Shown here: positions 3,120-24,829 of the stretch, one piece after another | How the letters are laid out: each line of letters opens with the position of its first letter | Numbering within the stretch: the first letter of the stretch is position 1 | Virus record (IMG/VR): IMGVR_UViG_3300040801_002175 | Span: 1-27,723 of that record | Strand: one strand, 5' to 3' | DNA: 27,723 bases | Source: a virus | The notes under the pieces: generated by a model | Seen by the model: only the letters and a program-made list of their open reading frames with translations | Databases searched by the model: none | Told to the model about the DNA's origin: nothing | Position numbers and translations under genes: made by a program

Positions 3120-3310
3120 TGTAAAAATATTATATGTCCTCCCCATCGACCTTCGGTTATGTACTTGTCGCCGTGCTTTTTGGGCAAGCACCACCCCCCA
3201 TCATCTGGGATCAGCTCAGTTAAGAACCATGAATTGTTAGGGGGCAGCGGACAGTCAAAAACCCGTGAATCTTTCCAGCCGCCCCCATACAAAAATACTA
3301 ATGCTTTCAT
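3116..3310 (-). CDS. Small hypothetical protein (64 aa) after JAMM gene
   Basis: A 64-aa protein starting MKALVFLYGGGWKDSRVFD at an ATG that overlaps the JAMM isopeptidase stop (ATGA). It has a hydrophobic N-terminal strand, then a Pro/Trp/Gly-rich body ending GRWGGHIIFLQ. No family is recognised. Tight coupling to the JAMM gene makes it the first candidate for an accessory partner of the ubiquitin-like system, but nothing in the sequence proves this. Confidence 0.6.
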   Translation of the reverse strand: MKALVFLYGGGWKDSRVFDCPLPPNNSWFLTELIPDDGGWCLPKKHGDKYITEGRWGGHIIFLQ

Positions 3311-4041
3311 TTCCAAATTGCGTTGCAATAGTTGCACCAGCCCTCCTTAGTCAGCTCCCTTTTCTTACCTTGAGCTTCGCAACCCGGGCAGAGGTCGTTG
3401 TCATCCTCTAAGCTGTCCCAATATGCCTTGGAGAAGTCTTTGCCGTAGCTCTTGCCGTAGCTCTTGCCGTAGCTCTTGCCGTAGCTCTTGCCTGCATAGC
3501 TTGTGTACACTTTCTTAGTCACGTTCTCATCCAGCATATCAAAGAACTCATCGGGCAAATCGGGCGTCTCAATCTCAAAGGGGATGTTAAGATACTTCAG
3601 CCCGGTATCGGGTAGCCAAACATCTACTTTCATCACTCCCTTTTTGTTGGAGATAACCCGGAAGAAAAACCCGTCATCGTTCTGCGCGTGGATGTGGCTG
3701 TCCCACATGGTATCGTCCTGAGCGCTCGGCTCGACTCCCATATTAACATGAGAATGCCAATGTAGGCGCAGGTCCTGAGCCTCCTCACCCAACTCAGCGT
3801 ACAAATCCAGTGTACCTTCAGGGGAGATTTCGGTAGTCGTAGAATGTACCTCCTGTTTAGGGAAGTACATATCCTTGAGCAGAAATTCCCTATTACTCAG
3901 GCGTTCGACCGTACCAAAAGCCCCTACCTCTGTGTCGAAGTAGTCAGTAGCGGCGGTGATCTTGCGCAAGGCTAACGGGGTGATAATTAATTTGGGGGTG
4001 AAGGTCATCACTAGCTTCACCGTTTCACTTGTTCTCCTCAT
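3307..4041 (-). CDS. JAMM/JAB isopeptidase with C-terminal zinc ribbon
   Basis: A 244-aa protein with a complete JAMM zinc-metalloprotease motif: Glu38 (TEVGAFG), then His96-Ser97-His98, seven residues, Ser106, two residues, Asp109. This family removes or matures ubiquitin-like proteins (Rpn11, Csn5, bacterial BilC and Cap3), so the expected role is Ubl processing or deconjugation in the cytoplasm. After the catalytic domain comes a low-complexity linker of four SYGK repeats (residues 186-201), encoded by four perfect 12-bp repeats. It is followed by a zinc-ribbon-like module with CxxC at 218/221 and 236/239. The ATG overlaps the E2-like gene stop by 4 nt, arguing for co-translation. The zinc ribbon may be a substrate or E2 adaptor (inference). 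Confidence 0.92.
   Translation of the reverse strand: MRRTSETVKLVMTFTPKLIITPLALRKITAATDYFDTEVGAFGTVERLSNREFLLKDMYFPKQEVHSTTTEISPEGTLDLYAELGEEAQDLRLHWHSHVNMGVEPSAQDDTMWDSHIHAQNDDGFFFRVISNKKGVMKVDVWLPDTGLKYLNIPFEIETPDLPDEFFDMLDENVTKKVYTSYAGKSYGKSYGKSYGKSYGKDFSKAYWDSLEDDNDLCPGCEAQGKKRELTKEGWCNYCNAIWK
3443..3490 (-). repeat. Four perfect 12-bp tandem repeats (SYGK linker)
   Basis: The 12-bp unit CCGTAGCTCTTG (plus-strand reading) occurs four times without mismatch. It encodes SYGK x 4 in the linker of the JAMM protein. Being in-frame and perfect, the array is likely to change copy number without breaking the gene. Confidence 0.95.
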
Positions 4042-5201
4042 GCTTCAGGCCATCTGTCGTAAGTCGCTCCTGCCGGATCGGAGGGATTTACGGATTCGAG
4101 AAATAGGATGCAAACATCTACTGCGGTTGCCCAATCCGACATAGCGCGGGCCTCCTCAATAGCAAGTTCAAAGTCACCAAAGCAGGCTTTACCGTTGCCT
4201 TGGACGTGCGGGTGATGGTCCTCATTCCAATATCCCTCCACTCTGCGGGTGCGGTTGTTAAACCGCACATAGAGCTGGCGATCCAAAGGGATGGAGATGT
4301 CCATATCCCCGAGTAGGTATTCGTCGCCCGTGTCGGGGTTTGTGAACGTCATGTCAGGGCAGTGCGCCACGATGTTGGAACCCAAAAGGAATACTTCGGA
4401 AACCTTTGGAAAGGCCCGAATCTTGTCAAGCTGACTTTGCACCAACTCTAGCGGGTTGAGCGTGTCAAGATGTTTGGATAGCCCGCTCAGCTCAAAGACT
4501 GTTTGCTCCCGGGTTTTGACTGACTCCTGAAAAGCTCGGCGGCGGTCCTCAATTTGCTGAGCGAGCTGAGTTGCCTGAGCTTTGAGGTTATCCACCTTGT
4601 CTTTGTAGCCCCGGATAATAAACTCAGATGCTGCTTTTTGCGGGTCGATCTTGTCTTCCCGTTCTGCTATGTCCAGCACCTCGGACAAAGCGTCTACACT
4701 CGCAGTGTAGATGTGCAGACGGATGACATTGCCTTTTTTGGACACCACAGGCCAACCCTCCCGGCAATAAAAGACTTCGCCGTCTTTAGGGGGAGAAAAT
4801 TTATAGTCTCCGCTAATCCCATTGATGGAATAGGGAGGCGGGTATCCGTTCTCAATTTTGGGCATGTATACCACCGCGTCGAAGCCCTCTTCGGGTTCTT
4901 TTGTGGTGGCCAATACAAACTCGCCGAGTTCGCGCAGCTTAGAGGCTATCCCAGTTTGGGGCCAGTCCATGAAGGTAACTGGCTTGCGGGGTAGCTCTCC
5001 GGTCGGTGAGAAAATGGTGATGTTCGGCAATGAGTCGTGTTGTTGGCCGAAGCCATCCGGGTATTTATCCATGATTTCTTTAGGATAAAAATACCCAAAC
5101 AGCCCGTCAACCTCAACGGGGTTGCCATTATCGGGGGCGAACTCTTCGATCACCCCTTCCAGTTTCTCACCCGGTATGAATACCAAGTGTTCGTGTGACA
5201 T
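4038..5201 (-). CDS. E2-like conjugating enzyme with coiled-coil middle
   Basis: A 387-aa protein whose last ~75 residues carry the prokaryotic E2-like (UBC-fold) signature. HPH at 330-332 is followed by VQGNGKAC with the candidate catalytic Cys340, then FGDFELAIEE, a hydrophobic helix, and ESVNPSDPAGA near 369-379. The family transfers an activated ubiquitin-like protein from E1 to a target through a Cys thioester. Residues ~205-255 are rich in K/E/Q with an apparent coiled coil. The N-terminal ~190 residues are Pro/Gly-rich and unrecognised, and could select the target. It lies between the E1-like gene (11 nt upstream) and the JAMM gene (4-nt overlap). It is longer than a minimal E2 (~150 aa). 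No RING-type E3 gene is visible nearby. Confidence 0.85.
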   Translation of the reverse strand: MSHEHLVFIPGEKLEGVIEEFAPDNGNPVEVDGLFGYFYPKEIMDKYPDGFGQQHDSLPNITIFSPTGELPRKPVTFMDWPQTGIASKLRELGEFVLATTKEPEEGFDAVVYMPKIENGYPPPYSINGISGDYKFSPPKDGEVFYCREGWPVVSKKGNVIRLHIYTASVDALSEVLDIAEREDKIDPQKAASEFIIRGYKDKVDNLKAQATQLAQQIEDRRRAFQESVKTREQTVFELSGLSKHLDTLNPLELVQSQLDKIRAFPKVSEVFLLGSNIVAHCPDMTFTNPDTGDEYLLGDMDISIPLDRQLYVRFNNRTRRVEGYWNEDHHPHVQGNGKACFGDFELAIEEARAMSDWATAVDVCILFLESVNPSDPAGATYDRWPEA

Positions 5202-5212
5202 TAATTAATAAT

Positions 5213-5857
5213 TTATAAGTTAACAATTTGTTCCAGTCCAATCCACTTTTCGACAAAACCCTCACCGGGTTCCATCATTTCCCACACAGCAAGGCTTGCA
5301 ATGAGGCTTGCCGTTGGGCCTACGGTGGGATAGAAACCGCAGGCCGATACTACCGTGTCTTCATTGGGATACCACGCGGCCTCCCACTTTTTACATTCTG
5401 CGGGAGAGAAGGGATTGTAGGCGTAAATACGGCCCCCCTTCACGGCCAGACGGGTCTCAATTACCCGCTTTACCTTTTTGTTCATCCGCAGACACTTCTG
5501 ATGGATTTCCATACGAGTGTCCATATCGTCAACTAGTAGGAAGACGAACCCCGCAAATTCATTGCGCTGATCTTTTACCCACTCGTTGCGGGCTTTTACT
5601 TTATAGTCAGTGAGGCGTTCAATCTCCTCACTCAGGCAATGTACTTTGGGCAAGCCGATGTGGCAGTTACCATAGGCTTGGTTAGCCACGTTGTGGGCCT
5701 CTATATTGTCAGCATCCCACACAGTTATGTTAGAGATACCCAACTTAGCCACCTCAACGGCTACTTTGCTGCCCGTGGCCCCGGCCCCGATAATGTGGAC
5801 GGGGTGTTTAAAGTCGTCAGGGTTGAAGACTTCCCGGTGTTTGTGTGCGTCAATCAT
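5213..5857 (-). CDS. E1/ThiF-like Ubl-activating enzyme
   Basis: A 214-aa ThiF/MoeB/E1-fold protein. The nucleotide-binding loop GAGATGS is at 24-30, the acidic strand WDADNIEAHN at 47-56 leads into NVANQ, Lys71 sits in GLPK, and VDDMDTR lies at 109-115. Cys173 in SACGFYPTVG is the best candidate for the Ubl-thioester cysteine. The family adenylates the C-terminus of a ubiquitin-like protein using ATP. It lacks the CxxC zinc pairs of many ThiF proteins, and the usual Arg of the NxxRQ motif is Asn59. The size fits a minimal E1-like protein as found in PRTRC-type and phage operons. It heads the E1-E2-JAMM run and is separated from the Ubl gene by a structured element and ~180 nt. Confidence 0.92.
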   Translation of the reverse strand: MIDAHKHREVFNPDDFKHPVHIIGAGATGSKVAVEVAKLGISNITVWDADNIEAHNVANQAYGNCHIGLPKVHCLSEEIERLTDYKVKARNEWVKDQRNEFAGFVFLLVDDMDTRMEIHQKCLRMNKKVKRVIETRLAVKGGRIYAYNPFSPAECKKWEAAWYPNEDTVVSACGFYPTVGPTASLIASLAVWEMMEPGEGFVEKWIGLEQIVNL

Positions 5858-5993
5858 AATTTGTATATAGTTTTTTGAATTGTTTTAGTGGTATGCAAAA
5901 CCTAATGTGGTTAGAGGAAGCATTAAAGGTATTGTCAGAGTCGATGAATAGAAACGGGTATCTTTTTCTAATACTACCATAGTTTTTTTTTTG

Positions 5994-6042
5994 AAGGCAG
6001 GCGGGGGATCGAACCCCGCCCAACTCCCGTCGAGTCTGCCTT
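5994..6042 (-). ncRNA. tRNA-like three-way-junction element A
   Basis: Read on the minus strand: a 7-bp outer stem AAGGCAG/CTGCCTT, an inner hairpin ACTC-GACGG-GAGT, and a second inner hairpin GCGGGG-TTCGATC-CCCCGC with a 7-nt T-loop-like sequence. This is the shape of a tRNA acceptor, D and T arm without an anticodon arm. The first two bases of the outer stem are the last two of the Ubl stop codon. No CCA and no U-tract follow (a run of A follows instead), so it is neither a complete tRNA nor a standard terminator. Three further elements (8790, 9469, 10032) share the layout and the GACGG core. Folding is by eye. Confidence 0.6.
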
Positions 6043-6247
6043 AGTTGGCCTTGGTCTGCTCAGCTACGAGAATAACGTCACCGTCATTCACATTAGCGGA
6101 AAAATCCGTGGTTGCCACGCCGTTGATCCGCACCGTTACACCAGAGGTCGGAAACCCGGCTTGGGTGATGGCTTGGTCGATCGTGGTGTCATCGGAAATA
6201 AAGACCGTTTCGGTGCGGCCTGGCACCTTAGTGATTTGAACTTTCAT
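6041..6247 (-). CDS. Ubiquitin-like beta-grasp protein (Ubl)
   Basis: A 68-aa protein from the ATG at 6247, with a ThiS/MoaD/ubiquitin-like beta-grasp pattern. A beta hairpin (KVQITKVPGRTETVFISD) comes first, then one helix (TTIDQAITQAGF), then strands VTVRINGV and NVNDGDVILVAEQ, the last close to the 'DGDxV' ending of ThiS/MoaD and PRTRC protein C. It is the expected substrate of the neighbouring E1, E2 and JAMM enzymes. Oddly it ends TKAN, without the terminal Gly-Gly that adenylation normally uses. The open frame extends upstream, but that stretch crosses a terminator and is not protein-like. Its leader resembles that of the preceding 101-aa gene. Confidence 0.85.
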   Translation of the reverse strand: MKVQITKVPGRTETVFISDDTTIDQAITQAGFPTSGVTVRINGVATTDFSANVNDGDVILVAEQTKAN

Positions 6248-6283
6248 GCTGAAATAAAATTGGAAGGTTGAGAAAAAAGGATG

Positions 6284-6309
6284 AAAAAGGCGGGGGAATT
6301 TCACCCCCG
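6284..6309 (-). terminator. Intrinsic terminator before the Ubl gene
   Basis: On the minus strand a 6-bp stem CGGGGG/CCCCCG with a 7-nt loop is followed by CC and TTTTT. It lies a few nt after the stop of the 101-aa helical gene and upstream of the Ubl start, so the two genes may be partly insulated despite their proximity. Confidence 0.75.
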
Positions 6310-6315
6310 GAAATC

Positions 6316-6621
6316 TTAGAACCACTCGGTCAGCAGGGCCTTGAGGTCGTCAACATCCCGCTGGGCCACAGCTACGACCTTCTGGGCCGCCTTGACCCCC
6401 TTAATCTGGTATAGTACGGCCCCGGCGTTGAAGGGCTCTTGGCGGACAGCCCCGATAATGTCGGCTTCGGCGTCGATCACGTCGCCCTTGGCGCGGTTTA
6501 CCCTGCCTTCGGCGTCGCTGATCTCAGCTTCCAACAGGAGGCGGGCCTTTTCGGCGCGGGCCTTGAGCTGTTCGGCGGTCAGGGTGTCTTTGTCCTGAGA
6601 AATTACTTCGAGAAACTTCAT
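6316..6621 (-). CDS. All-helical protein upstream of Ubl
   Basis: A 101-aa protein, almost entirely Ala/Glu/Lys/Arg/Leu-rich with heptad-like spacing (EQLKARAEKARLLLEAEISD). It probably forms one or two long helices or a coiled coil; no family is recognised. It sits just upstream of the Ubl gene, separated by an intrinsic terminator. Its leader (TAACCTTTCAAT...ATTTCA before ATG) is nearly the same as that of the Ubl gene (CAACCTTCCAAT...ATTTCA), so the two are probably controlled alike. It is a candidate partner or target of the Ubl (inference). Confidence 0.75.
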   Translation of the reverse strand: MKFLEVISQDKDTLTAEQLKARAEKARLLLEAEISDAEGRVNRAKGDVIDAEADIIGAVRQEPFNAGAVLYQIKGVKAAQKVVAVAQRDVDDLKALLTEWF

Positions 6622-6713
6622 AATGAAATGATTGAAAGGTTAAAAAATGATGATGTAAGGGTACAAATAATTTTTTGGTATTGCAAGGGAAATAAGTTTT
6701 TTTACCCTATCTC

Positions 6714-7043
6714 CTATGTTTTTTCCCAAGCCATTGGCTTATATAGCTTGGTTAGTTGTGTGCTATACCATGTTTGCCCTACCTGAATGTTGTCCGGACA
6801 AACAAAGTTTAATCGGGCTATACTCACACTATCGGGGCGTACAATAACGTACCTTCCCCCGGCTTTAGGTTCTTTAATTTCGTCGGGTAGTTGGGTGTAT
6901 ATGGTAACATTCCCTAAGTGGGTGGCACATTTAACGGAATGTTCTTCCCACCAATACACCCTTTGGGCAGTTTTGTACCCTACCTTAACCCCGGCGGGAA
7001 TATCCAAGGGTGAATTACCGGGGAAATAGAATATTATTTTCAT
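6714..7043 (-). CDS. Hypothetical protein (109 aa)
   Basis: A 109-aa protein starting MKIIFYFPGNSPLDIPAGVK, beta-rich and of unrecognised function. Its ATG forms a 4-nt overlap with the upstream gene stop. It is the last gene of a tight cluster running leftwards from 8758. About 90 AT-rich nt then separate it from the 101-aa helical gene. Confidence 0.7.
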   Translation of the reverse strand: MKIIFYFPGNSPLDIPAGVKVGYKTAQRVYWWEEHSVKCATHLGNVTIYTQLPDEIKEPKAGGRYVIVRPDSVSIARLNFVCPDNIQVGQTWYSTQLTKLYKPMAWEKT

Positions 7044-7261
7044 AGTAGTTTAGCTATTATCTTAACTCCAAACATACCAAACCAACTCAGGTCTTCCTCA
7101 CAGGTGTTGCACCAATAGTCTACCCCGGCTAACTTAAAAATTGGGGGGCCGCTGTAAGAATGCCCAACTTCAATTACCATAACCCTGCAAAAGCCTTCCC
7201 CAAAATCCCTTTTAGGGTACGATCCTACGGGCTGTATCAACAATTCGTCTCCCTCTTTCAA
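7040..7261 (-). CDS. Small protein, 'GDxLLIxPxG' paralogue
   Basis: A 73-aa protein. I place the start at the TTG at 7261, which overlaps the upstream stop as TTGA and makes the N-terminus KEGDELLIQPVG match that of the next paralogue upstream (YKGDKLLILPIG, at 7745). The frame is open to an ATG at 7336, but that lies deep in the neighbouring gene. The C-terminus WFGMFGVKIIAKLL also matches the paralogue's WYESFGIKIISMV. It contains CNTC. Function unknown. Confidence 0.65.
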   Translation of the reverse strand: MKEGDELLIQPVGSYPKRDFGEGFCRVMVIEVGHSYSGPPIFKLAGVDYWCNTCEEDLSWFGMFGVKIIAKLL

Positions 7262-7488
7262 AATGGTATGAATTTTAGTCTTTCTCGGTAGTCTTCCCCT
7301 ACTATTAAGGAACGCAAATATGGCCTTACTTTCCAACGCCCGTTACGATTCATTAAATACTTGCCATTCCATTCGGCTACAAGGAAAAACTTTCCCTCAA
7401 CTTCCGAAACCCAACCTTGGTTAGGTATGAAATATACCATCCCTACTTTACGGGCTTCTACCTCAGTTTCGTATACGTTTATTTTCAT
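7258..7488 (-). CDS. Hypothetical protein (76 aa)
   Basis: A 76-aa protein starting MKINVYETEVEARKVGMVYF at the ATG at 7488, which overlaps the previous stop as ATGA. An upstream in-frame start would lie inside the preceding gene. The product is basic and beta-rich, with no recognised domain. It sits between the two 'GDxLLIxPxG' paralogues. Confidence 0.65.
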   Translation of the reverse strand: MKINVYETEVEARKVGMVYFIPNQGWVSEVEGKFFLVAEWNGKYLMNRNGRWKVRPYLRSLIVGEDYRERLKFIPF

Positions 7489-7745
7489 ACCATAGATATT
7501 ATTTTTATACCGAAACTTTCGTACCATTCCCTGTACGCCTCCCCGCATATTTCAGGGTCTGCCGTGTTTATGGCATACTGGGCCTCTTCTATTTCAAAGT
7601 TGTAATACGGGTTCCGGGCCTCCTCTGGATGAATAGGCCTCCCGATTTCCTTTGCGGTTACAACCCGAAATCCCTTTCCAAGGTAGGGTATTTGCTTAGC
7701 ACCTATGGGAAGTATTAGGAGCTTATCTCCTTTGTATATTACCAT
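7485..7745 (-). CDS. Small protein, 'GDxLLIxPxG' paralogue (86 aa)
   Basis: An 86-aa protein starting MVIYKGDKLLILPIGAKQIP. It shares strand pattern, a central GKGFRVVTAKEIGR segment and its C-terminus with the gene at 7040-7261, so they look like duplicates. A predicted small beta-barrel start is followed by an acidic helix. Its ATG lies within the stop of the 48-aa gene upstream. Function unknown. Confidence 0.7.
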   Translation of the reverse strand: MVIYKGDKLLILPIGAKQIPYLGKGFRVVTAKEIGRPIHPEEARNPYYNFEIEEAQYAINTADPEICGEAYREWYESFGIKIISMV

Positions 7746-7885
7746 GTTATTTTGTTTGGGGATACTATGAGCGATGTGGATATTAAGCGGGGCTGGCCAA
7801 CTTCTTTAGTCAGCCACTTAATTATATCCTTTTCCCAACTGAGGTTGGGTGTGTGAAATTCCAAAAATTCTTTTGTGTGATTCAT
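7739..7885 (-). CDS. Small hypothetical protein (48 aa)
   Basis: Read by hand. The ATG at 7885 overlaps the upstream stop (ATGA) and the frame ends at TAA within ATGGTAA, which also holds the next gene's start. The 48-aa product begins MNHTKEFLEFHTPNLSWEKD; no motif is recognised. The TKEFLEF start recalls the TKEVFKSW tails elsewhere in the operon, perhaps by chance. Perfect overlaps at both ends are the evidence. Confidence 0.6.
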   Translation of the reverse strand: MNHTKEFLEFHTPNLSWEKDIIKWLTKEVGQPRLISTSLIVSPNKITW

Positions 7886-8100
7886 ACTTTATCTTGTTTT
7901 CCTTTTAAGTAGGCCTCCTCTAGCATTTCATCTAGTAGGTCGATATATTCGATTAAAGCATAGGGCAGATAGTTAGCAAAAGGTTGCCAAACAATTACCC
8001 CTTTTGGTACAACGTCCTCAGCTTTTTCGAGCTGTTTAAGAGCCTCCCCTATGTTATCGTTGCATAGAATAAAGCCCGCCGCTTTTTCTCTAAAGTTCAT
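7882..8100 (-). CDS. Hypothetical helical protein (72 aa)
   Basis: A 72-aa protein starting MNFREKAAGFILCNDNIGEA, two predicted helices with an acidic second half ending KGKQDKV. It has no recognised family. It starts 7 nt after the upstream gene's stop and overlaps the 48-aa gene by 4 nt. Confidence 0.65.
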   Translation of the reverse strand: MNFREKAAGFILCNDNIGEALKQLEKAEDVVPKGVIVWQPFANYLPYALIEYIDLLDEMLEEAYLKGKQDKV

Positions 8101-8107
8101 ATCTTGT

Positions 8108-8323
8108 TTATTTACCGTGTTCGATTTGGGCGTAGATGCCTGATTTGAATGCGCGGAGGTAGATTAAAATCTCTTTCCTAGAGACAAACCCAAATGAGAC
8201 GTCTAACGTGCCGTGTTCAACTTTCCGCACGAGTTTATACCCACCATAGGCAGCATCAATACCGAAAAGATCGCTACCAATGGCGTAGTTAATTTGGTTG
8301 ATCAGCTCTCTTATTTCTTTCAT
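8108..8323 (-). CDS. Hypothetical protein (71 aa)
   Basis: A 71-aa alpha/beta protein starting MKEIRELINQINYAIGSDLF. Nothing diagnostic is visible. Its ATG overlaps the upstream stop by 4 nt, and it is followed by the 72-aa gene in the same transcription unit. Confidence 0.7.
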   Translation of the reverse strand: MKEIRELINQINYAIGSDLFGIDAAYGGYKLVRKVEHGTLDVSFGFVSRKEILIYLRAFKSGIYAQIEHGK

Positions 8324-8613
8324 ACTTTAAGTGTTTGTGCATTGTCTTCTGTCCAATAACCGAAGTCGCTTCCGTCTCCCGGGTGCGCCCCGAAATAATA
8401 CCCCTCCGGCGCGTACCAGTCCAGCACCTCAAACAACTCCTCCAAGATGTAGGGAGCTTCATTGTCCCACCAATCGGCCTCCTCATCTTCCCAAACATGA
8501 GCCGGAATGTTTTGCATAAGTTGGATGTATTCCGGGCGATCTTTGATTTCCTTTAAGAATGCAGGAATTAAATCCTGCGGGCGAAGGGTTCCGCTAATTA
8601 TCGTCATAGTCAA
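8320..8613 (-). CDS. Hypothetical acidic protein (97 aa)
   Basis: A 97-aa protein rich in Trp, Glu and Asp. Its C-terminal segment APEGYYFGAHPGDGSDFGYW looks strongly conserved in character; I have the impression of similar sequences in Bacteroidota phages and mobile elements, but no function is known to me. It overlaps the membrane-protein gene upstream by 20 nt from the ATG at 8613; a second ATG at 8607 is possible. Confidence 0.75.
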   Translation of the reverse strand: MTMTIISGTLRPQDLIPAFLKEIKDRPEYIQLMQNIPAHVWEDEEADWWDNEAPYILEELFEVLDWYAPEGYYFGAHPGDGSDFGYWTEDNAQTLKV

Positions 8614-8758
8614 ATTCTTTTGTGGCCATTAGTTGTATTAACACCGCTACCAAAGATAGCAGTACCAACACAATGTTAAACAGGCTAAAGTCGCCCGTAA
8701 AACATACGCAATATACAAACGTGAAATACATCAGAAACCAAATACATACGAAAAACAT
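8594..8758 (-). CDS. Small membrane protein (54 aa)
   Basis: Read by hand. The ATG at 8758 comes directly after the conserved leader ...TTTTGGGATATG and opens a 54-codon frame ending in TAG. Two hydrophobic segments (residues ~2-20, beginning MFFVCIWFLMYFTF, and ~26-43) are separated by a short TGDFS turn, with an acidic tail EFDYDDN. A small two-span inner-membrane protein is likely; a holin-like or superinfection role is only a guess. It is the first gene of the unit that follows element B. Confidence 0.7.
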   Translation of the reverse strand: MFFVCIWFLMYFTFVYCVCFTGDFSLFNIVLVLLSLVAVLIQLMATKEFDYDDN

Positions 8759-8789
8759 ATCCCAAAATTTATAGAGATTGATAAAATAG
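8759..8789 (-). promoter_or_regulatory. Conserved leader B (TTTGGGATATG type)
   Basis: The minus-strand sequence TTTTATCAATCTCTA followed by an AT-rich stretch and TTTTGGGATATG links element B to the 54-aa membrane-protein gene. It is the same leader as at 9433 and 9995 and, more loosely, in front of the capsid gene. A phage promoter or translation enhancer; the sequence does not decide which. Confidence 0.55.
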
Positions 8790-8839
8790 AACCCGCGATG
8801 GCTTCGACGCCTACCGTCTTATTCCAACGGTCGCGGGTT
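8790..8839 (-). ncRNA. Three-way-junction element B
   Basis: On the minus strand: a 9-bp outer stem AACCCGCGA/TCGCGGGTT, an inner hairpin CCGT...ACGG (GACGG core), and a small second hairpin GGC-GTCGAA-GCC. It begins 6 nt after the stop of the 61-aa gene and runs into the leader of the next unit. Compared with element C, the second hairpin shows compensatory changes (GGC/GCC versus TGC/GTA). A termination or RNA-processing role is inferred from position. Confidence 0.65.
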
Positions 8840-8845
8840 AGGATG

Positions 8846-9031
8846 CTACGCTACATTTACCGGGCGCTTGTCCAGATGCTGCCCGTTATCGAAATGGTAA
8901 CGGGTTCCCCCAAAGGGAAGGGGGGATTCTTTGATCGGCTCCAAAGACTTTACGCGGCTGGAAAGATACTCCTCCGCTTTCTTCTGAGACGAAAAATAGG
9001 CGGCGTTATTTACTGAATAAACCCAATTCAT
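8846..9031 (-). CDS. Hypothetical protein (61 aa)
   Basis: A 61-aa protein starting MNWVYSVNNAAYFSSQKKAE, with a basic helical middle and no recognised motif. It lies 12 nt after the preceding gene and is the last gene before element B. Confidence 0.6.
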   Translation of the reverse strand: MNWVYSVNNAAYFSSQKKAEEYLSSRVKSLEPIKESPLPFGGTRYHFDNGQHLDKRPVNVA

Positions 9032-9043
9032 AATAGAGTTATT

Positions 9044-9247
9044 TTAAATGATTTGATAATGTTCCCAATTTAAAATGGCATCAACCCTATCGGATACCTT
9101 CTCTTGCATATCCGATAAGGCCAAGATTTCGATAAGGAGGAGACGGGCGTTAACCCGTTCTTCTCCGGAGTAAAGCCCTTCGCTTTCAAGGCGTTCAGCC
9201 TCCTCAAGGTGTTGGGCCACCCGGTTAAACAGTTGTTTTGCTACCAT
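9044..9247 (-). CDS. Hypothetical helical protein (67 aa)
   Basis: A 67-aa largely helical protein (VAKQLFNRVAQHLEEAERLE). No family is recognised. Its ATG overlaps the upstream stop by 7 nt. Confidence 0.65.
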   Translation of the reverse strand: MVAKQLFNRVAQHLEEAERLESEGLYSGEERVNARLLLIEILALSDMQEKVSDRVDAILNWEHYQII

Positions 9248-9432
9248 TTGAAAGCAATTAGCGCTTCCTCATATTCATGAGGAGACAGGTGGAAAGATAT
9301 GTTTAAACTCCATTCTCCCCCGATACGGGATTGCCGGAGTTTTTTGTTGCGGGAGATACACGCCCGCATAGCTTCGGGGAAACCTCCCTGAATTTTCACT
9401 ATTCTTCCGGTTATTTTCTCAATAATTTCCAT
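9241..9432 (-). CDS. Hypothetical protein (63 aa), first gene after element C
   Basis: A 63-aa protein starting MEIIEKITGRIVKIQGGFPE, basic, with no recognised domain. The start is placed by the conserved leader (TTATTTGGGATATG) ending exactly at this ATG, as for the genes at 8758 and 9994. Confidence 0.7.
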   Translation of the reverse strand: MEIIEKITGRIVKIQGGFPEAMRACISRNKKLRQSRIGGEWSLNISFHLSPHEYEEALIAFKW

Positions 9433-9468
9433 ATCCCAAATAATTTTAGAGATTGATAAAAAAAATAG
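9433..9468 (-). promoter_or_regulatory. Conserved leader C (TTTGGGATATG type)
   Basis: The minus strand reads TTTTATCAATCTCTA then AAATTATTTGGGATATG. It is almost base-identical to leader D at 9995 although the genes behind them are unrelated, so the conservation concerns the DNA or RNA signal itself. Confidence 0.65.
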
Positions 9469-9515
9469 AACCCGCAGTTACATCGAAGCATACCGTCATT
9501 ATACGGCTGCGGGTT
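9469..9515 (-). ncRNA. Three-way-junction element C
   Basis: On the minus strand: a 9-bp outer stem AACCCGCAG/CTGCGGGTT, an inner hairpin CCGT-ATAATG-ACGG, and a short second arm TGC-TTCGAT-GTA. It starts 6 nt after the stop of the basic-protein gene. It is followed by CTATTTTTTTTATC, a T-run that would suit transcription termination, and then leader C. Confidence 0.7.
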
Positions 9516-9521
9516 TAGGCG

Positions 9522-9815
9522 CTATTCGTAGTTGTAGCCGTGATATATGGGTAAACCGTCTATCACTTCCACATCGAAGCGCTTTCGATGGGAATTATAA
9601 GGTTTTGCCGCGTCATTGTGCGCAAGCTGGTGTGCAAAATCACTGTATTTGCATTTTGTCTTACTCCGCGCCCGCGCCCCGTTCCCCCGGCGGTGATTGC
9701 GGACAGTCTTGAGGGAGTTGACATCCCCTATTTCCGTCCGGCGGTCGTGTTCTTTTGCAGCCCGCCGCGCCTTTTTGGCTTTGCGGAGAGCCGTTATTTT
9801 TTTGTTGCGTCCCAT
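9522..9815 (-). CDS. Highly basic protein (97 aa)
   Basis: A 97-aa protein. The first ~65 residues are dominated by Arg/Lys (MGRNKKITALRKAKKARRAA), followed by a KCKYSDFAHQLAHNDAA segment and an acidic/aromatic tail. This fits nucleic-acid binding, but no fold is recognised. Its ATG overlaps the upstream TAA by one base (TAATG). Element C follows directly. Confidence 0.75.
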   Translation of the reverse strand: MGRNKKITALRKAKKARRAAKEHDRRTEIGDVNSLKTVRNHRRGNGARARSKTKCKYSDFAHQLAHNDAAKPYNSHRKRFDVEVIDGLPIYHGYNYE

Positions 9816-9994
9816 TATTTCGGCGTTTTAACCACCCTTACCTGCCCGGGAAATTTCTTTTCCAGTCGGTTCAGGGTAAACTTTTTGGAAAATCTTATCT
9901 CCCCTTCCGGGGTGTTAACTACAAACTTATCACGGTCGTGCTCTCGGCACGCTTCCGTGCTCATCTTACTGAAAATTGCACTCTTTTTTTTCAT
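9815..9994 (-). CDS. Small basic protein (59 aa)
   Basis: Read by hand. The ATG at 9994 ends the conserved leader D; the 59-codon frame closes with TAA overlapping the next ATG (TAATG). The product begins MKKKSAIFSKMSTEACREHD, has FVVNTPEGEIRFSKKFTLNR in the middle, and is strongly basic. A small nucleic-acid-binding or ribosome-associated protein is possible; there is no recognised family. Confidence 0.7.
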   Translation of the reverse strand: MKKKSAIFSKMSTEACREHDRDKFVVNTPEGEIRFSKKFTLNRLEKKFPGQVRVVKTPK

Positions 9995-10031
9995 ATCCCA
10001 AATAATTTTAGAGATTAATAAAATAATTCAG
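9995..10031 (-). promoter_or_regulatory. Conserved leader D (TTTGGGATATG type)
   Basis: The minus strand reads TTTTATTAATCTCTA then AAATTATTTGGGATATG, matching leader C except for one base and its 5' flank. It links element D to the 59-aa gene. Confidence 0.65.
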
Positions 10032-10079
10032 TACCCTAGCCCGGTCGTGAACCGTCGCGCCCTGTGACGAGCTAGGGTA
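10032..10079 (-). ncRNA. Three-way-junction element D
   Basis: On the minus strand: a 9-bp outer stem TACCCTAGC/GCTAGGGTA enclosing about 30 nt that can form two hairpins around a GACGG core, including CGGT-TCACG-ACCG. Unlike A-C no gene precedes it. It marks the end of the 1.2-kb gene-free region and may be the 3' end of that transcript. Confidence 0.6.
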
Positions 10080-11240
10080 TATTCTTCTATTCCTGTCTTA
10101 AAGTTCTTTTCAGGTAGGCGCGTCGCTATAACAGGTTGCCTATTATCCCTTATTCATTCCCCGTAGCGGTCGGGGCATTTACAAAACAGCTAACCGATTT
10201 AGTACAGGTATATCGGTGGCAACCCCTAACCCCTACGCTAACCGTAGGCCATAACCCTCCCTCAGGTTGTGGAGTTGTTTCGCTGATCGACATCCTAAGC
10301 CAAACCGTTCTAAACTCCCCAATTATATATAACATAGGCCGTATATACAAAAGAGGAATTTGTTTAGTAAGACAAAATAAATGTCTGCAATTTTTGATAT
10401 GTATTAAGGGCTAAAGCCCGGCGTTCCCCTGCACTTGTAAGGCAATACAGCTATATTGCTATTCAGGTAGGCCCAACGGTCAAAAATAAGCCGAAAAAAC
10501 CGCACAAAGTACGCATAATACACGCAAAAAGCCGTCTGTGACTTTTAGCAGGTATTTTACACACTCTGCTTACTGTTTACAGGCAATAGGTATTCATTTC
10601 CCCGCCTACGGGAGTTAATGCGCTACGGACGCAAAATCCTATATTGTTAGACTAATCCCACTCACCCCGATGAACCAACGGGCGTTGTTGTCGTTGGGGT
10701 ATTCATACGCGCAGCGCTCTCGCAATACACACGTATCTTGCAGTTCATAGTCGTTAGAGCTTGCGCCCAAACACACTATTAAATAGTCTATCCTGCAAAC
10801 CAAACTTGTAATGTACAGCCCCAAGTCATATCTAAGGTGGCACTCCGTCACAGGTTGCGCACGCCTCACAACCCGCTACCTTGCTAAGAGGTACTAAATT
10901 CCCGTCGATAGGTACAGACCTCGCAGCGGACTTTCGCCCGTCCATTCGGATACCGACCCCCATTTTAAAACTGCCTAATACAGTCTATTTTAGAGAGCTG
11001 CCCCGGCACTGCTCAGCGACGCCGTCCTCCCCAAGCCCCAAAATTTAGGTAGTGCTTGGATCATAGGCCGTCCTGACTAAACAGACTCCTAGCTTTCCCC
11101 ACAGAAGTGGGTACACCAGACTTGTTTGCATACTAAGCGCTAACTTAGCACACCCTATACTAGATACGTTGTGAACGCACCTAGTTTAGACTTTTGCGGG
11201 TAGCTACCGAAGACCGGAATACTATTTTTCCCGCTTTGTA
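10032..11240 (-). ncRNA. Candidate large structured non-coding RNA
   Basis: About 1.2 kb with no protein-like frame on either strand, in a genome otherwise packed with overlapping genes. It is dense in short perfect hairpins: CCTACG-CTAAC-CGTAGG (10231), GGGCT-AA-AGCCC (10408), GCAATA-CAGCTA-TATTGC (10442), CCGAT...ATCGG (10193), GGTAGCTACC (11199). A promoter at 11245-11276 points into it on the minus strand and element D closes it. This resembles the size and setting of large ornate phage RNAs such as GOLLD or ROOL, but I cannot assign it to a known class and some hairpins would form on either strand. Alternatives are a decayed region or a replication/packaging site. Confidence 0.4.
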
Positions 11241-11244
11241 TTCA

Positions 11245-11276
11245 CAAAGGTAAAAAACATTTCGCACAATTCCAAA
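11245..11276 (-). promoter_or_regulatory. Bacteroidota-type promoter P1
   Basis: On the minus strand TTTG, 20 nt, then TACCTTTG, matching the Bacteroidota primary-sigma consensus (TTTG at -33, TAnnTTTG at -7). The expected start is near 11238, driving the gene-free 1.2-kb region. Promoter P2 has identical boxes and spacing. Confidence 0.75.
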
Positions 11277-11477
11277 AAATTATTGGTATTGTTTGGAAAA
11301 AAAATCCTTTAGCTATCATTGCAACCCTACCGCGAGCAGGGTATATTAAGGCGCTCCGGTCAAAGGAGCACGCCACAACTACACACCTAGGAAAGCTAAG
11401 AACCTAAATTCAGAGCAATTCCCCAAACATGCCAATTATCAAAGGAATGATGCAAAGGTTCTTTAACCGTTGCTGTG
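11277..11477 (-). ncRNA. Possible short RNA between promoters P2 and P1
   Basis: The transcript from P2 would begin near 11471 and cross this gene-free stretch. Two clear hairpins are present on the minus strand: GGCGTGCTCC/GGAGCGCC (11350-11374) and ACCCT-GCTCGCGGT-AGGGT (11324-11342). A TTTTTTTT run follows about 20 nt later, too far for a textbook terminator. It could be a ~180-nt small RNA or simply the 5' leader of the larger RNA. Confidence 0.3.
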
Positions 11478-11509
11478 CAAAGGTAAGAAACGTTTCCCAA
11501 ACATCCAAA
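11478..11509 (-). promoter_or_regulatory. Bacteroidota-type promoter P2
   Basis: On the minus strand TTTG, 20 nt, then TACCTTTG, the same -7 box and spacing as P1 233 bp away. The spacer sequences also share TTTGG...GAAA-type words, hinting at duplication of a promoter cassette. Confidence 0.75.
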
Positions 11510-12310: not shown

Positions 12311-12371
12311 AAAAAGTAGCGTTAGCTCTCAAAAAAAGTGCCGCAGGCTTCAGAAAAGTAGCGTTAGCTCT
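12311..12371 (+). repeat. Phased ~21-bp repeats upstream of plus-strand promoter
   Basis: AAAAGTAGCGTTAGCTCT occurs exactly at 12312-12329 and 12354-12371, 42 bp apart. Between them, at 21-bp phase, lies a diverged copy with AAAAAAAGTGCCGCAGGCTT. Each unit is an A-tract plus a mini-palindrome (AGC-GTTA-GCT, GCC-GCA-GGC). The spacing is two helical turns per unit, typical of regulator sites on one DNA face. Confidence 0.75.
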
Positions 12372-16672: not shown

Positions 16673-16988
16673 GCAGTTTTCATTACTACAGGCTGAGAAT
16701 ATCCGACTACGCTCGGAGAATGCCCTACTTGCTTCTGAGAATCGCAAGCTTCGGATTGATCTGAACAAGCTCTTGGATGCGCTCAAGTCAGTCTGGGAGT
16801 CGCTGCCGTTTGTTCTACAGTTAGTGTCGCTATTTAAGGGGAAGTTTACGTGGCTTAAAGTTCTAGGAAACTTGGGCAAGATAGCCGCGTTACTGAATGC
16901 AATTATAGGAAAGTTCAAAGATGGTAAGGAACTCGCAGGGGATTTGGCTCAACTCTCAAGTATTCCGGGAACCAGCGATACACTTTGA
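16665..16988 (+). CDS. Coiled-coil protein next to terminase (107 aa)
   Basis: A 107-aa protein from the ATG at 16665, overlapping the previous stop by 8 nt. Residues 5-45 form a clear heptad coiled coil (LLQAENIRLRSENALLASEN). A hydrophobic region LPFVLQLVSLFKGKFTWLKV follows, with a helical segment LGKIAALLNAIIGKFK. It overlaps the terminase start by 68 nt. Candidates are a small terminase or an oligomeric membrane-associated protein. Confidence 0.7.
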   Translation, partial: NSEQFSLLQAENIRLRSENALLASENRKLRIDLNKLLDALKSVWESLPFVLQLVSLFKGKFTWLKVLGNLGKIAALLNAIIGKFKDGKELAGDLAQLSSIPGTSDTL

Positions 16989-19944
16989 GAAATACGGTTA
17001 CTACACCGATGCCCCGAAAGGGACAATTTCTTGGAGAAAATACTGGGATGAGGAGTTAAGGAGATGTATTGAGGGACACGAAGTAAGTGGTGCTCGTATT
17101 ACGGGTGACCACTATTTCTATTTGAACTACTACCGCATCATGAAAAAGGAGGGCAATCGCAAAGTTGAGGGCTTTCCTGACTTCTGGGATGGGGACTATA
17201 ACTACTTTCACGCCGTAGACATTGCCCGATTCGGCATCTCCAAAGAAGAACTTAAAAAGCTGCACTTGGAGTGGGAGCCCCTTTGGATAGACGGGGGACA
17301 TCACATCATGGTGGCTAAGGCCCGTAGAAAGGGGTTTGCACAGCCCAACACAGAGCCAGTTCTGACCCCGTCCGGTTGGAAGCTTATGGGAGATATTAAA
17401 GTTGGGGACTTAGTAATGACCCCGTCTGGTAAGCCTACAAAAGTTTTGGAAGTATACCCCCAAGGGGAGCGGGAGGTTTTTGAAGTCGTATTACATGATA
17501 ATAGACGTACTCGGTGTTCTGAGGACCACCTGTGGAGGATAAAGACAAGCCGTGGAGACAGAGTAGTACCCACATCTTTTTTCTTAAATAAAAAATTAAT
17601 ACGTAACGCTGGCAAGGAAAATAGCTACTATGCCTACCATTTACCGGAAATAGAGCCCCTTGATTTTGAAGAAAAGGAGCTTCCAGTAGACCCGTATGTG
17701 CTGGGTGTTTTGTTAGGTGATGGATGCTTAACGGGTAGTAACACTGCCATATCTACGGGGGATTACGAAATAGTAGAGGAGCTACAAAATAGGCTTCCCT
17801 CCGCTAACATTAGGAAACAGAAGAATGATTTTGGTTACTCCATAGCTTATGGTCTTCCAAAAAACCCACTGAAAGAAAAGCTGCGAGAATTAGGAGTTTG
17901 TACGTATAGTTACAGCAAGTTCGTACCAAAAGATTATTTGTATAGCTCAATTAGTCAGAGACTTGAGCTTTTGAGAGGCCTCATGGATACCGATGGTACC
18001 TCCAGCCCCTGCGGGACGGTAAGGTTTAATACTTCCTCACCACAACTCAGGGACGATGTGTTATTTTTATTCAGGAGCTTGGGCTGTAGAGCACGGTGGT
18101 ACCAGCCCAAACCAGCAGGGTGGGCCAAAAGGCCTCATTATGTAGTCAGTGCTGTATGTGATTTGGATGTATTTAAACTGGACCGTAAGCTTAAAAACAT
18201 CAAGAAGGGTAGAAAGTATGGCTATAAGAAAATAGGCATCAGGGAGGTTAGGTCTTTGGGATATACTGAGGAACAGACCTGTATCTTGGTAGAAGACCCG
18301 GAGCATTTATACATCACAAAGGATTTTATACCCACTCACAATAGTTACAAAAACTCCGCCAAGGCCGTAAACACCTACAACACGGTCAGAAAGTCGCTTA
18401 TCCTATTCACTGCTTACGAAAAGAAGTACCTTTTTCCAAACGGTATCATGACTATGGCTCTCAATGGGCTTTCTTTTTTGTCTGAGCATACCGCTTGGGG
18501 CAAGAAAAGGGAATACGTAGATCGGCAGGACCACGTCAGGGCTTCTTACCGGGGAAAGAATAACGGCATAGAATTCGAGAAGGGATATAAGTCAGAGATG
18601 ATGGCCCTCTCCTTTAAAGACAGACCCGGTGCGGCCAGAGGTAAGGACCCGTACTTAGTAATCATGGAGGAGGCCGGGGAGTGGGATGGGTTTCTATCTT
18701 CCTTAAAAGCGACCGAGCCCTCTACCAGAGATGGTTCTACCATGACCGGGCAGATTTTGGCTTTTGGTACTGGCGGAGACATGACCTCTGCCTCAGTTGA
18801 CTTTGCTGATGTGTTCTACAACCCAGAGCTGCATAATTTTCTACCATTCGACAATGTCTGGGATGAGGGAGCTTCCGGAAACTCCTGCGCCTTTTTCTTT
18901 CCAGTCAACCTCAATAACCCAGACTATACAGATGATCAGGGTAATTCTGATTTAGAGGCGGCCAAAAAAGCTGAAATGGAGGAAAGACAACGCATCGTAG
19001 AGCGTTCAAAAGGTGCAGTCAGTATGGCCAAGCACCTATCGGAGTACGCTCTTTCCCCCCAAGAGGCCTTCTTGGTGGATAACATAAACGCTTTCCCCGT
19101 TGATTTATTGCAAAGACGCCTCAATCAGCTCATGGCTGACGATAAGGCCAAGATTGGGAAGCCCTACATCCTGCAAAAGGAAGACGGTAAGGTATTGGGC
19201 ATGCCTGATCTTCAAGGTACCCTAAAGCCCATCATACATTATAGGGCTGAAGAGTTAGACCAAAGTGGGGCAGTAGTGGTCTATGAAGAGCCCATTCCTA
19301 ACCCACCACCCGGCACTTACGTAATTGGCTATGACCCCTATCGCCACAATACCTCACAGACGGATTCATTAGGAGCTGCGTTTGTGTACAAAAACCCCAC
19401 TAACCTGAGCCCGAACTCTGATATTATTGTAGCCGAATACGTAGGCAGGCCCAGAACTACGGATGAGTATGAGCGTAGGCTGGCCCTATTGGCTGAGTAC
19501 TACAACGCTACTATCCTGTATGAGAATGAAGTGAATAACACCGAAAAGAATTTTGAATACTGGAATAAACTCCATCTTTTAAACCGCCAGCCCGACTCTC
19601 TAATTAAGGCCCACGTCAAAAAAAGTAAGGTCAAAAGAGAGTTCGGTATGCACATGACCAGTAGTTTTATTGAGGCAGGAGATAAATATATAACTAATTG
19701 GTTACTCACTGAAAGAGAGAAAACTAAGGATGGTGAACCTATTTACAACTTAGATTTGTTATACTCTATAGGGTTGATTGAAGAAATGATCAAGTACAAC
19801 CCCAAGGGGAACTTTGACCGCCTCATGGCATTTAGGCTCGTCATGTTCGCCAGAGAAGAAGAAAAGCTAAATAACAAGGCTGGCCAGAGCCGGGAACGAA
19901 AGGTAATTAATCAACTTCTTGAGATGAAAAAATACTCCCGATGA
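16921..19944 (+). CDS. terL: Terminase large subunit, interrupted by an intein
   Basis: A 1007-aa precursor; after removal of a 335-aa intein (residues 140-474) the extein is 672 aa, normal for crAss-like TerL. The N-terminus has GYYTDAPKG and RITGDHYFYLNYYRI. The ATP-binding loop is ARRKGF at 134-139, joined by splicing to SYKNS. The Walker B strand YLVIMEEAGEWD has Glu583/584. The RNase H-like nuclease begins with VIGYDPYRHNTSQTDS (Asp805). It translocates and cuts DNA into proheads through the portal. Because the intein splits the ATP-binding motif, the enzyme should be inactive until splicing. The stop overlaps the portal ATG (ATGA). Confidence 0.95.
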   Translation: MVRNSQGIWLNSQVFREPAIHFEKYGYYTDAPKGTISWRKYWDEELRRCIEGHEVSGARITGDHYFYLNYYRIMKKEGNRKVEGFPDFWDGDYNYFHAVDIARFGISKEELKKLHLEWEPLWIDGGHHIMVAKARRKGFAQPNTEPVLTPSGWKLMGDIKVGDLVMTPSGKPTKVLEVYPQGEREVFEVVLHDNRRTRCSEDHLWRIKTSRGDRVVPTSFFLNKKLIRNAGKENSYYAYHLPEIEPLDFEEKELPVDPYVLGVLLGDGCLTGSNTAISTGDYEIVEELQNRLPSANIRKQKNDFGYSIAYGLPKNPLKEKLRELGVCTYSYSKFVPKDYLYSSISQRLELLRGLMDTDGTSSPCGTVRFNTSSPQLRDDVLFLFRSLGCRARWYQPKPAGWAKRPHYVVSAVCDLDVFKLDRKLKNIKKGRKYGYKKIGIREVRSLGYTEEQTCILVEDPEHLYITKDFIPTHNSYKNSAKAVNTYNTVRKSLILFTAYEKKYLFPNGIMTMALNGLSFLSEHTAWGKKREYVDRQDHVRASYRGKNNGIEFEKGYKSEMMALSFKDRPGAARGKDPYLVIMEEAGEWDGFLSSLKATEPSTRDGSTMTGQILAFGTGGDMTSASVDFADVFYNPELHNFLPFDNVWDEGASGNSCAFFFPVNLNNPDYTDDQGNSDLEAAKKAEMEERQRIVERSKGAVSMAKHLSEYALSPQEAFLVDNINAFPVDLLQRRLNQLMADDKAKIGKPYILQKEDGKVLGMPDLQGTLKPIIHYRAEELDQSGAVVVYEEPIPNPPPGTYVIGYDPYRHNTSQTDSLGAAFVYKNPTNLSPNSDIIVAEYVGRPRTTDEYERRLALLAEYYNATILYENEVNNTEKNFEYWNKLHLLNRQPDSLIKAHVKKSKVKREFGMHMTSSFIEAGDKYITNWLLTEREKTKDGEPIYNLDLLYSIGLIEEMIKYNPKGNFDRLMAFRLVMFAREEEKLNNKAGQSRERKVINQLLEMKKYSR
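17338..18342 (+). other. Class 3-like intein with LAGLIDADG endonuclease, in terL
   Basis: 335 codons inserted between KGF and SYK of the terminase ATP-binding motif. It starts AQPNTEPVLTPSGWKLMGDI, so position 1 is Ala, not Cys/Ser. Block B CSEDHLW has His64 and Trp66, block F TCILVEDPEHLY has Cys315, and the end IPTHN has Thr333 and Asn335, followed by Ser+1. Trp-Cys-Thr at these places is the hallmark of class 3 inteins, where the internal Cys replaces the N-terminal nucleophile. The homing endonuclease shows both LAGLIDADG helices: YVLGVLLGDG at precursor residue 259 and LLRGLMDTDG at 350. It looks intact, so splicing and homing are probably both active. Confidence 0.9.
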
Positions 19945-23309: not shown

Positions 23310-23333
23310 TTTTATAATCAAATTTTTTGGGAT
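23310..23333 (+). promoter_or_regulatory. Capsid-gene leader (TTTGGGATATG type)
   Basis: TTTTATAATCAAATTTTTTGGGATATG precedes the capsid gene (split here as TTTTATAATC and AAATTTTTTGGGATATG). It matches the leaders at 8759, 9433 and 9995 on the opposite strand in its first part and in TTTGGGATATG. There is no Shine-Dalgarno sequence, so this may be a phage-specific strong expression signal. Confidence 0.55.
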
Positions 23334-24791
23334 ATGAATGTCAACAATAGCATGGTTATTCAACGCATGCCTTGGCATTCCACGATGACGGAGATGAACC
23401 ATCTGGGTCGCGCTCTTCTGGCTAAGCCGGAGGTTTTCGCTGACAAGATGATGAAGATTTTCTCGTCTTATCGCTATTCGGATAACCCCCTGACTTCCAT
23501 GTTGGGCGGTACTGGCCGTGAAATGGTCATCAATTCGAGTGAGTGGGAGTGGAAGCTACAGGGTGCGTCCACGCGACCGGGAGTCATTGTAGAAAATGTA
23601 CTGCCTGCCGCAAACACCACGCCGGGTTACGGCAACGTACCGTTTAAGATCAAGCTTGATTTTGATTGGTACCGCCCCGGCGACGTTATCCATCCGGGTA
23701 CGATGGACAAAAAGTACCAGTGCCGCATTCAGAGAGGCCCCATCCCGCAAGGTGGTGGCTTTATCTATGAGGTACAACTCGTCGATGCAGAAGTCGATGA
23801 TTTCCTGCCTGTTCAGTACCTTGCCCCCAACACCAAGTGGGGTAAGCTTTTTGCACAGTACGAGGAAGGTTCCGTAGAGAGTGGTTCCACCCACTACGCA
23901 CTGCCTCAGCACCTGCACTCTCGCCTCAGCCGCTATCGTAAGAAGTACGATGTGACTGGCGATGTAGCCCGTCAGGTTCTCGCTGTCAAAATCCCTGATG
24001 AAAAAGGTAATTTCCACAGCGCTTGGATCAAGTACGCTGAAGCCGAATATTGGGCTCAGTGGTACCGTGAGATCGAGCGTGGTCTGTGGTACAGCCGTGA
24101 GTCTAACACGGTAGCTGGTTCTACCGGACGCCCGATCCTGTCTGGCCCCGGTGTTCAGCAACTTCTGGAAAAAGGCCCCAACAACTATGAGTACACCGAT
24201 TTCACGGCGGACCTGCTTGAGCAGTTCCTCTTGGACATCTACTACTCTACTGTTTCTCCGGGCAGCCAGCGTAACATCAAGGTGTTTACTGGTGAGATCG
24301 GAATGATGGAGTTCCACAAAGCTGTCATGGATAAAGCTTCTACGAGCGGATTCCTGCAAGTTGTGGATGACATCAACATCCAGAAGCAGAGTACGCCTTA
24401 CCACTCTAACGGCCTGAGCTACGGTGCTCAGTTTGTTAAGTACAAAGGCGCTAACGGTATCGAAGTAGAGGTTGTACACAACCCGATCTACGACGACACC
24501 GAGATCAACTTCGACATTGATCCGCGCACAGGTTTCCCCTACGAGTCTCGTCGCTTTACGTTCCTTGATCTCTCCGGCGAAGGCATGGAGTCTAACATCA
24601 AGTACGTACGCAAGGCCGACGCTATGAAGGTAGCTTACGTTCCGGGTATCCAGAGCCCCTACGGTTTTGGTGACCAGAAATTTGCTGCTCACGAGGGTGA
24701 CTTCTACACCATGACTTGTCATGATCAGTGCGGAACGCACATCACCGATACTTCTCGGTGTGGTGAGTTGAAGCCGCGTAAAGTTGGATAA
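23334..24791 (+). CDS. Major capsid protein
   Basis: A 485-aa protein of the length and position of crAss-like major capsid proteins (HK97 fold expected). It has an N-terminal helical start (MPWHSTMTEMNHLGRALLAK), mixed strands and large loops, and ends with a CRKADAMKV-free, Gly/Cys-containing tail (CHDQCGTHITDTSRCGELKP). Arginine codons are mostly CGT/CGC, unlike the AGA/AGG-rich terminase, as expected for a highly expressed gene. It is preceded by the conserved leader and followed by a terminator-like hairpin. Identification rests on context and length, not on a catalytic motif. Confidence 0.82.
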   Translation: MNVNNSMVIQRMPWHSTMTEMNHLGRALLAKPEVFADKMMKIFSSYRYSDNPLTSMLGGTGREMVINSSEWEWKLQGASTRPGVIVENVLPAANTTPGYGNVPFKIKLDFDWYRPGDVIHPGTMDKKYQCRIQRGPIPQGGGFIYEVQLVDAEVDDFLPVQYLAPNTKWGKLFAQYEEGSVESGSTHYALPQHLHSRLSRYRKKYDVTGDVARQVLAVKIPDEKGNFHSAWIKYAEAEYWAQWYREIERGLWYSRESNTVAGSTGRPILSGPGVQQLLEKGPNNYEYTDFTADLLEQFLLDIYYSTVSPGSQRNIKVFTGEIGMMEFHKAVMDKASTSGFLQVVDDINIQKQSTPYHSNGLSYGAQFVKYKGANGIEVEVVHNPIYDDTEINFDIDPRTGFPYESRRFTFLDLSGEGMESNIKYVRKADAMKVAYVPGIQSPYGFGDQKFAAHEGDFYTMTCHDQCGTHITDTSRCGELKPRKVG

Positions 24792-24802
24792 ACACTAGGA
24801 TG

Positions 24803-24829
24803 GAGGGGGTAACACCCCTCCTCCTTATA
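24803..24829 (+). terminator. Terminator-like hairpin after capsid gene
   Basis: GGAGGGG-GTAACA-CCCCTCC is a perfect 7-bp G/C stem soon after the capsid stop, followed by TCCTTATAAATTT. The T-run is poor, so it is probably a partial terminator or an mRNA-stabilising 3' hairpin that keeps capsid mRNA in excess. Confidence 0.6.

Follow-up and report, generated by a model that had tools for sequence, protein, structure and literature searches.

Structured elements between the small minus-strand genes of a crAss-like phage fragment: a duplicated three-way-junction hairpin and a candidate role at transcript 3' ends

The 27.7 kb fragment analysed here, referred to throughout as the window, comes from a crAss-like (Crassvirales-type) phage. 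It is recognised as such by its major capsid gene, ORF 23334-24791, which has a match to the Pfam crAss capsid family with E=1.9e-123; the best named relatives are Flavobacterium phages, whose capsid is 50% identical. Small minus-strand genes occupy 1-10 kb and are followed by a noncoding stretch, and the plus-strand packaging and structural genes start at ~12.6 kb. Near the start of the plus-strand arm lies a perfect 18-nt direct repeat (12312-12329 and 12354-12371, plus strand) with a spacing of 42 nt, and the terminase large subunit gene (16921-19944, plus strand) carries an apparent intein insert with a LAGLIDADG endonuclease domain. The minus-strand arm includes a cassette at 3307-6247; alongside a ThiF/E1-like enzyme and a JAB-domain protein, it encodes a possible ubiquitin-like protein, for which the match is weak. 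A search for relatives of the proteins P0004 and P0003 in viral_contigs found none.

Four elements in the minus-strand arm, A to D, had been grouped by the first-pass annotation as one family of RNA three-way junctions. Both the positions and the outer stems that it gave for them are correct in the sequence. The elements are as follows.

5994-6042, minus strand: element A, a stable hairpin with a T-arm-like loop, after ORF 6041-6247 (folding, Rfam)
8790-8839, minus strand: element B, a three-way-junction hairpin 6 nt past the stop codon of ORF 8846-9031 (folding, covariation)
9469-9515, minus strand: element C, a copy of B, 6 nt past the stop codon of ORF 9522-9815 (folding, covariation)
10032-10079, minus strand: element D, a long hairpin whose outer stem shows covariation, located where the noncoding stretch ends (folding, covariance model)

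On the minus strand, B and C both fold as three-way junctions, with z scores of -3.9 and -2.8, respectively. Their alignment shows a mean column identity of 85% over 50 columns, with one 3-nt gap. All of the pairs (16/16) are retained despite 12 differences; three pairs differ at both positions and one at a single position. In a simulation of random substitution, all pairs were kept in ~2 of 10,000 trials (0.02%), and this is stronger evidence for covariation than a shuffle control, which is weak with two sequences and in which 60 of 500 shuffles did as well. The two elements also have their flank and leader in common. B and C are genuine copies of one three-way-junction hairpin of 47-50 nt. 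The sequence right after the hairpin is TTCTATTTTATC in B and TTCTATTTTTTTTATC in C, so that both tails are T-rich. The ORF immediately before C (9522-9815, minus strand) encodes a small protein with a very basic N-terminal start, for which a family search gave no match.

Element D departs from this fold. The minimum-energy structure of its minus strand is one extended single hairpin; in a hand-drawn three-way version, the inner pairs have a probability of ~0.01 or less and the two inner hairpins compete for one base. The three-way junction proposed for all four elements thus applies to A, B and C and is not supported for D. The outer stem of D nevertheless retains its pairing through four double changes relative to B and five relative to C, and its leader is nearly identical to that of C. 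On its own strand, D is preceded by noncoding DNA and not by a stop codon. With a covariance model built from B and C (R1), D is reached at an E value of 0.77 and A is absent from the matches at E<=10, which argues against one family of four. The motif GACGG does occur in all four elements, as had been noted, but on the 3' side of hairpin 1 in B and C, within the long hairpin in D and in a loop in A; it was therefore rejected as a family mark. Covariation of the outer stems is seen among B, C and D.

Element A folds as a three-way junction on the minus strand with a z score of -2.1. It starts 0 nt after the stop codon of ORF 6041-6247, so that A, B and C do lie within the claimed 0-6 nt of a stop codon. 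Element A lies between ORF 6041-6247, the possible ubiquitin-like gene with the weak match, and a ThiF-type gene at 5213-5857. The loop TTCGATC resembles a tRNA T-arm, and with its outer stem and small hairpin A recalls the tRNA-like mascRNA/menRNA (RF01684). However, the full-length match to mascRNA reaches 20 bits against a cut-off of 42.5, there is no CCA end, and shuffling yields a comparable tRNA-like shape in 14 of 100 windows, which is chance level. ARAGORN with default settings returns 0 tRNA genes. A PreQ1 riboswitch at A was rejected (19.9 bits versus 39, with too short a loop), as was a tRNA remnant or att site, with no convincing tRNA match among the matches listed. A search with A in the phylum of G023 gave matches at E<=1 in 175 of 395 genomes; among the matches listed, these span 15-35 nt and some lie over the T-arm. 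No homology of A to B, C or D was found. A is best read as an ordinary stable hairpin after a gene, unrelated to the other three.

Four copies of the leader were located in the window.

8756-8789, minus strand: leader of B, ending in TTTGGGATATG at the start codon (string search)
9430-9468, minus strand: leader of C, ending in TTTGGGATATG (string search)
9992-10031, minus strand: leader of D, ending in TTTGGGATATG (string search)
23310-23336, plus strand: fourth leader copy, before the major capsid gene and without an element (string search)

The string TTTGGGATATG is found exactly four times in the window. Each copy coincides with a start codon: those at 8758, 9432 and 9994 belong to minus-strand genes, and the one at 23334 belongs to the capsid gene on the plus strand. 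The description of three elements as standing directly before a conserved leader is thus borne out for B, C and D, A being the exception. Looser matches at 6664-6683 and 11272-11291 (minus strand) do not lie directly before gene starts in the ORF list. Elsewhere, the 18-base leader pattern was found in 23 viral stretches, 0 of which have the GGGAT start context of the window. As the leader stands without an element before the capsid gene, the two are separable. The leader presumably acts as a phage-type promoter or start signal.

The best reading is a role at the 3' ends of transcripts, which is among the functions that the first-pass annotation offered (termination signals or RNase-resistant 3' ends). 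It is favoured by the positions past stop codons, by stems that keep pairing through changes on both sides, and by the T-rich tails that B and C have. All four elements contain stable GC-rich stems by folding, and A to C would be met just past the stop codons of the presumed minus-strand transcripts. Of the five minus-arm gaps of at least 60 nt in the ORF list, four have a stem just past the stop codon. Of these gap stems, only those of B (z -3.4) and C (z -2.3) are notable in folding energy; A reaches -1.9 and a plain hairpin -1.2. We then scored the elements as terminators, together with two simple hairpins.

6291-6309, minus strand: simple terminator-like hairpin with a T-tract after ORF 6316-6621 (terminator scan)
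24802-24824, plus strand: simple terminator-like hairpin after the major capsid gene (terminator scan)

With what we take to be the terminator score formula, the values are +1.9 for B, -2.2 for C, -27.0 for D and -15.0 for A, which places B and C at the borderline and is poor for the other two, neither of which has a good T-tract. A positive score was obtained for only 2 of 201 scanned minus-strand stems, B among them. Of the two simple hairpins, which are on a par with the elements or above them, the one after the capsid gene scores +6.9 to +13.4, depending on the ends chosen, and the one after ORF 6316-6621 scores +1.5. The claim is graded accordingly, with a 3'-end structure likely and an efficient terminator unproven. 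The elements share with intrinsic (Rho-independent) terminators the GC-rich stem just past a stop codon and, in B and C, the T-rich tail; they differ in the fork inside B and C, in the poor tail of D and A and in the borderline or negative scores.

The reading that we favour, at about an even chance, is that B, C and D are 3'-end structures, either weak terminators or stabilisers, of transcripts that end just upstream of phage promoters. Each of the three would close one minus-strand transcription unit, with the promoter-like leader (TTTGGGATATG) of the next unit adjoining. The GC-rich outer stem and the T-rich stretch may slow or stop the polymerase, or may provide an exonuclease-resistant end. 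The fork inside B and C would be a variant that was already there at duplication; it is probably dispensable, because a plain stem fills a like place both in D and after the capsid gene. On this reading, RNA would start at TTTGGGAT and have its 3' ends no more than 20 nt past B, C and D. The positions, the predicted folds, the covariation and the separability of element and leader are observed, and from these we infer the direction of transcription, the promoters, and termination or protection. For phage P23-45, seven termination sites specific to the phage polymerase and with a 26-nt motif are described in a paper that also compares the P23-45 polymerases with that of the crAss-like phage phi14:2 (PMC10770324). 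The likeness is that a virus equipped with RNA polymerases of its own can use stop signals of a non-standard kind; the motif is a different one, as is the virus. Among the examined proteins of the window, none was identified as a polymerase.

D, for its part, would mark the end of a ~1.2 kb noncoding transcript. The relevant features are listed below.

10080-11240, minus strand: noncoding stretch of ~1.2 kb, partly strongly folded, ending at D (folding windows, 5-mer counts)
11245-11276, minus strand: Bacteroidota-type promoter match TTTG-N20-TACCTTTG (assumed consensus)
11478-11509, minus strand: second Bacteroidota-type promoter match (assumed consensus)

Taking TTTG-N(19-21)-TANNTTTG to be the Bacteroidota promoter consensus, we read its two exact matches on the minus strand as putative host-type promoters; 3 of 100 shuffles also reach two. 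The stretch reads away from these matches, and D lies at its low end near the arm junction. Between the promoter matches and D, the ORF list contains no ORF of at least 100 codons, the longest having 92. Folding is strong near the promoter matches (z -3.8 and -4.1 for 200-nt windows; z -3.9 for 285 nt), and the 200-nt windows beside D give z scores of 0 to -1.6, except those containing D. GACGG occurs six times in the stretch against 1.1 expected, a count reached by 0 of 1000 shuffles; some other 5-mers are more frequent still. Rfam gave no match up to E=10 for 10000-11300, and no homologue of the stretch was found in phages, plasmids or the collected loci. A tRNA array was rejected here, relaxed ARAGORN settings giving only implausible scatter. 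It is a very long shot that the stretch (11240 to 10032, minus strand) specifies an undescribed ornate-type noncoding RNA, that its transcription starts from the pair of host-type promoters close to the arm junction, the place at which some relatives produce GOLLD, and that a phage factor, the basic protein P0007 encoded just before C being a candidate, recognises GACGG stems in this RNA and in the ends B, C and D as one control circuit.

In 22 records of crAss-like relatives, a homologous element was found in none (0 of 22), so the comparison is confined to one window, and this result also counts against the proposed family. A strict shape scan of 11 relatives, which allows only a rough comparison given its crude gene calls, gave one hit in all (G010); this aligns to G011 and G012, appears by eye to be a small ORF on the opposite strand and was rejected. 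The exact core pattern occurs in six viral stretches and at least 118 genome stretches. The collected loci hold 134 pattern matches, the window and four overlapping loci accounting for ten of them. When R1 was run on 86 pattern loci, the best E value was 0.027 (L191), covering model positions 7-44 only and omitting the outermost six pairs. The longest outer stem outside the window has 7 bp (L215), compared with 9 bp in B and C. L191, L215 and the other public pattern matches look like chance.

GOLLD RNA is present in four of the 22 relatives and the Pistol ribozyme in two.

L256-L259 (G011, G010, G012 and G005, respectively), L260 and L261: loci of the GOLLD and Pistol observations (Rfam)

In G010, G011 and G012, a hairpin stands at the GOLLD 3' end and an ATG follows shortly after. 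The window resembles these three relatives, with their 3'-end hairpin before a small ORF, and has a noncoding stretch near the arm junction; it differs in having no match to GOLLD (RF02032) at E<=1, besides the Rfam result for 10000-11300. GOLLD and ROOL occur in phages and prophages according to a cryo-EM paper, in the available part of which the word crAss is absent (PMC12286853). Among the papers listed by the literature searches, none describes such elements for crAss-like phages, judged by titles and abstract openings. Two further structures were seen among the collected loci: a noncoding Rfam tmRNA match in Flavobacterium phage FpV4 (L121:31947-32361, minus strand; 58.2 bits, cut-off 47) that ARAGORN missed, and a run of consecutive near-perfect hairpins at L100:3380-3780 (plus strand), partly apparently inside an ORF, with a folding z score of -13.8.

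Several other explanations were weighed against a 3'-end role. B, C and D stop 31-37 nt ahead of start codons, and B and C were duplicated as a unit of element and leader; they might therefore be 5' leader elements of the downstream genes, controlled by a protein or ligand and duplicated with the leader. This is rather unlikely, since the capsid leader has no element, the fold of D differs although its leader is nearly the same as that of C, and Rfam holds no family match for B (E<=3) or for C and D (E<=5). Repetition of element and leader as a unit around small genes, and the ability of both strands to fold, would suit a function as DNA, either within the phage promoter, of which the hairpin would be a part, or as a site at which small gene cassettes recombine. 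We regard this as very unlikely: the capsid leader lacks the hairpin, the end boxes that we assume for integron attC sites misfit B, C and D by eye, and no further copies were recognised in the collections searched.

The resemblance could also be due to chance, in which case only B and C would be a true pair, arisen by duplication, whereas D and A would be unrelated stable stems. R1, which omits A and gives D its poor E value, points this way, as does the looser fork shape, which is common in the window (76 of 295 outer-stem structures on both strands hold at least two hairpins). A strict shape scan of the 3,728 nt of noncoding DNA in the window, on both strands, gave six strand hits at three loci (A, B and D), C being lost to the rule for inner stems. 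Twenty shuffles averaged 0.45 hits, with a maximum of 2, so the element structures exceed chance. Against a chance resemblance, D has the leader and position in common with B and C, and its outer-stem pairing survives four or five double changes; we regard this explanation as distinctly unlikely. Highly unlikely is a role as tRNA-like or ribozyme-like RNA processing sites. The T-arm shape of A and its weak mascRNA match would fit, as would the Pistol ribozymes, one of them near GOLLD in G012; but the frequency of A-like shapes in shuffled windows, the missing encoded CCA end and the ARAGORN result weigh against it, B, C and D have no T-arm, and neither the window at the cut-off nor the element stretches at relaxed limits gave a match to any ribozyme family. 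In summary, the four elements are not one family: B and C are true copies and A is unrelated, and for B, C and D we retain the 3'-end reading.

To our knowledge, little is known of where the transcripts of crAss-like phages start and stop. The window offers testable pieces for this question: three small-gene units carry the same phage-type leader as the capsid gene, matches to a host-type promoter lie at the arm junction, and structured ends separate the units. With GOLLD in four of 22 relatives, it also points to large structured noncoding RNAs in crAss-like phages.
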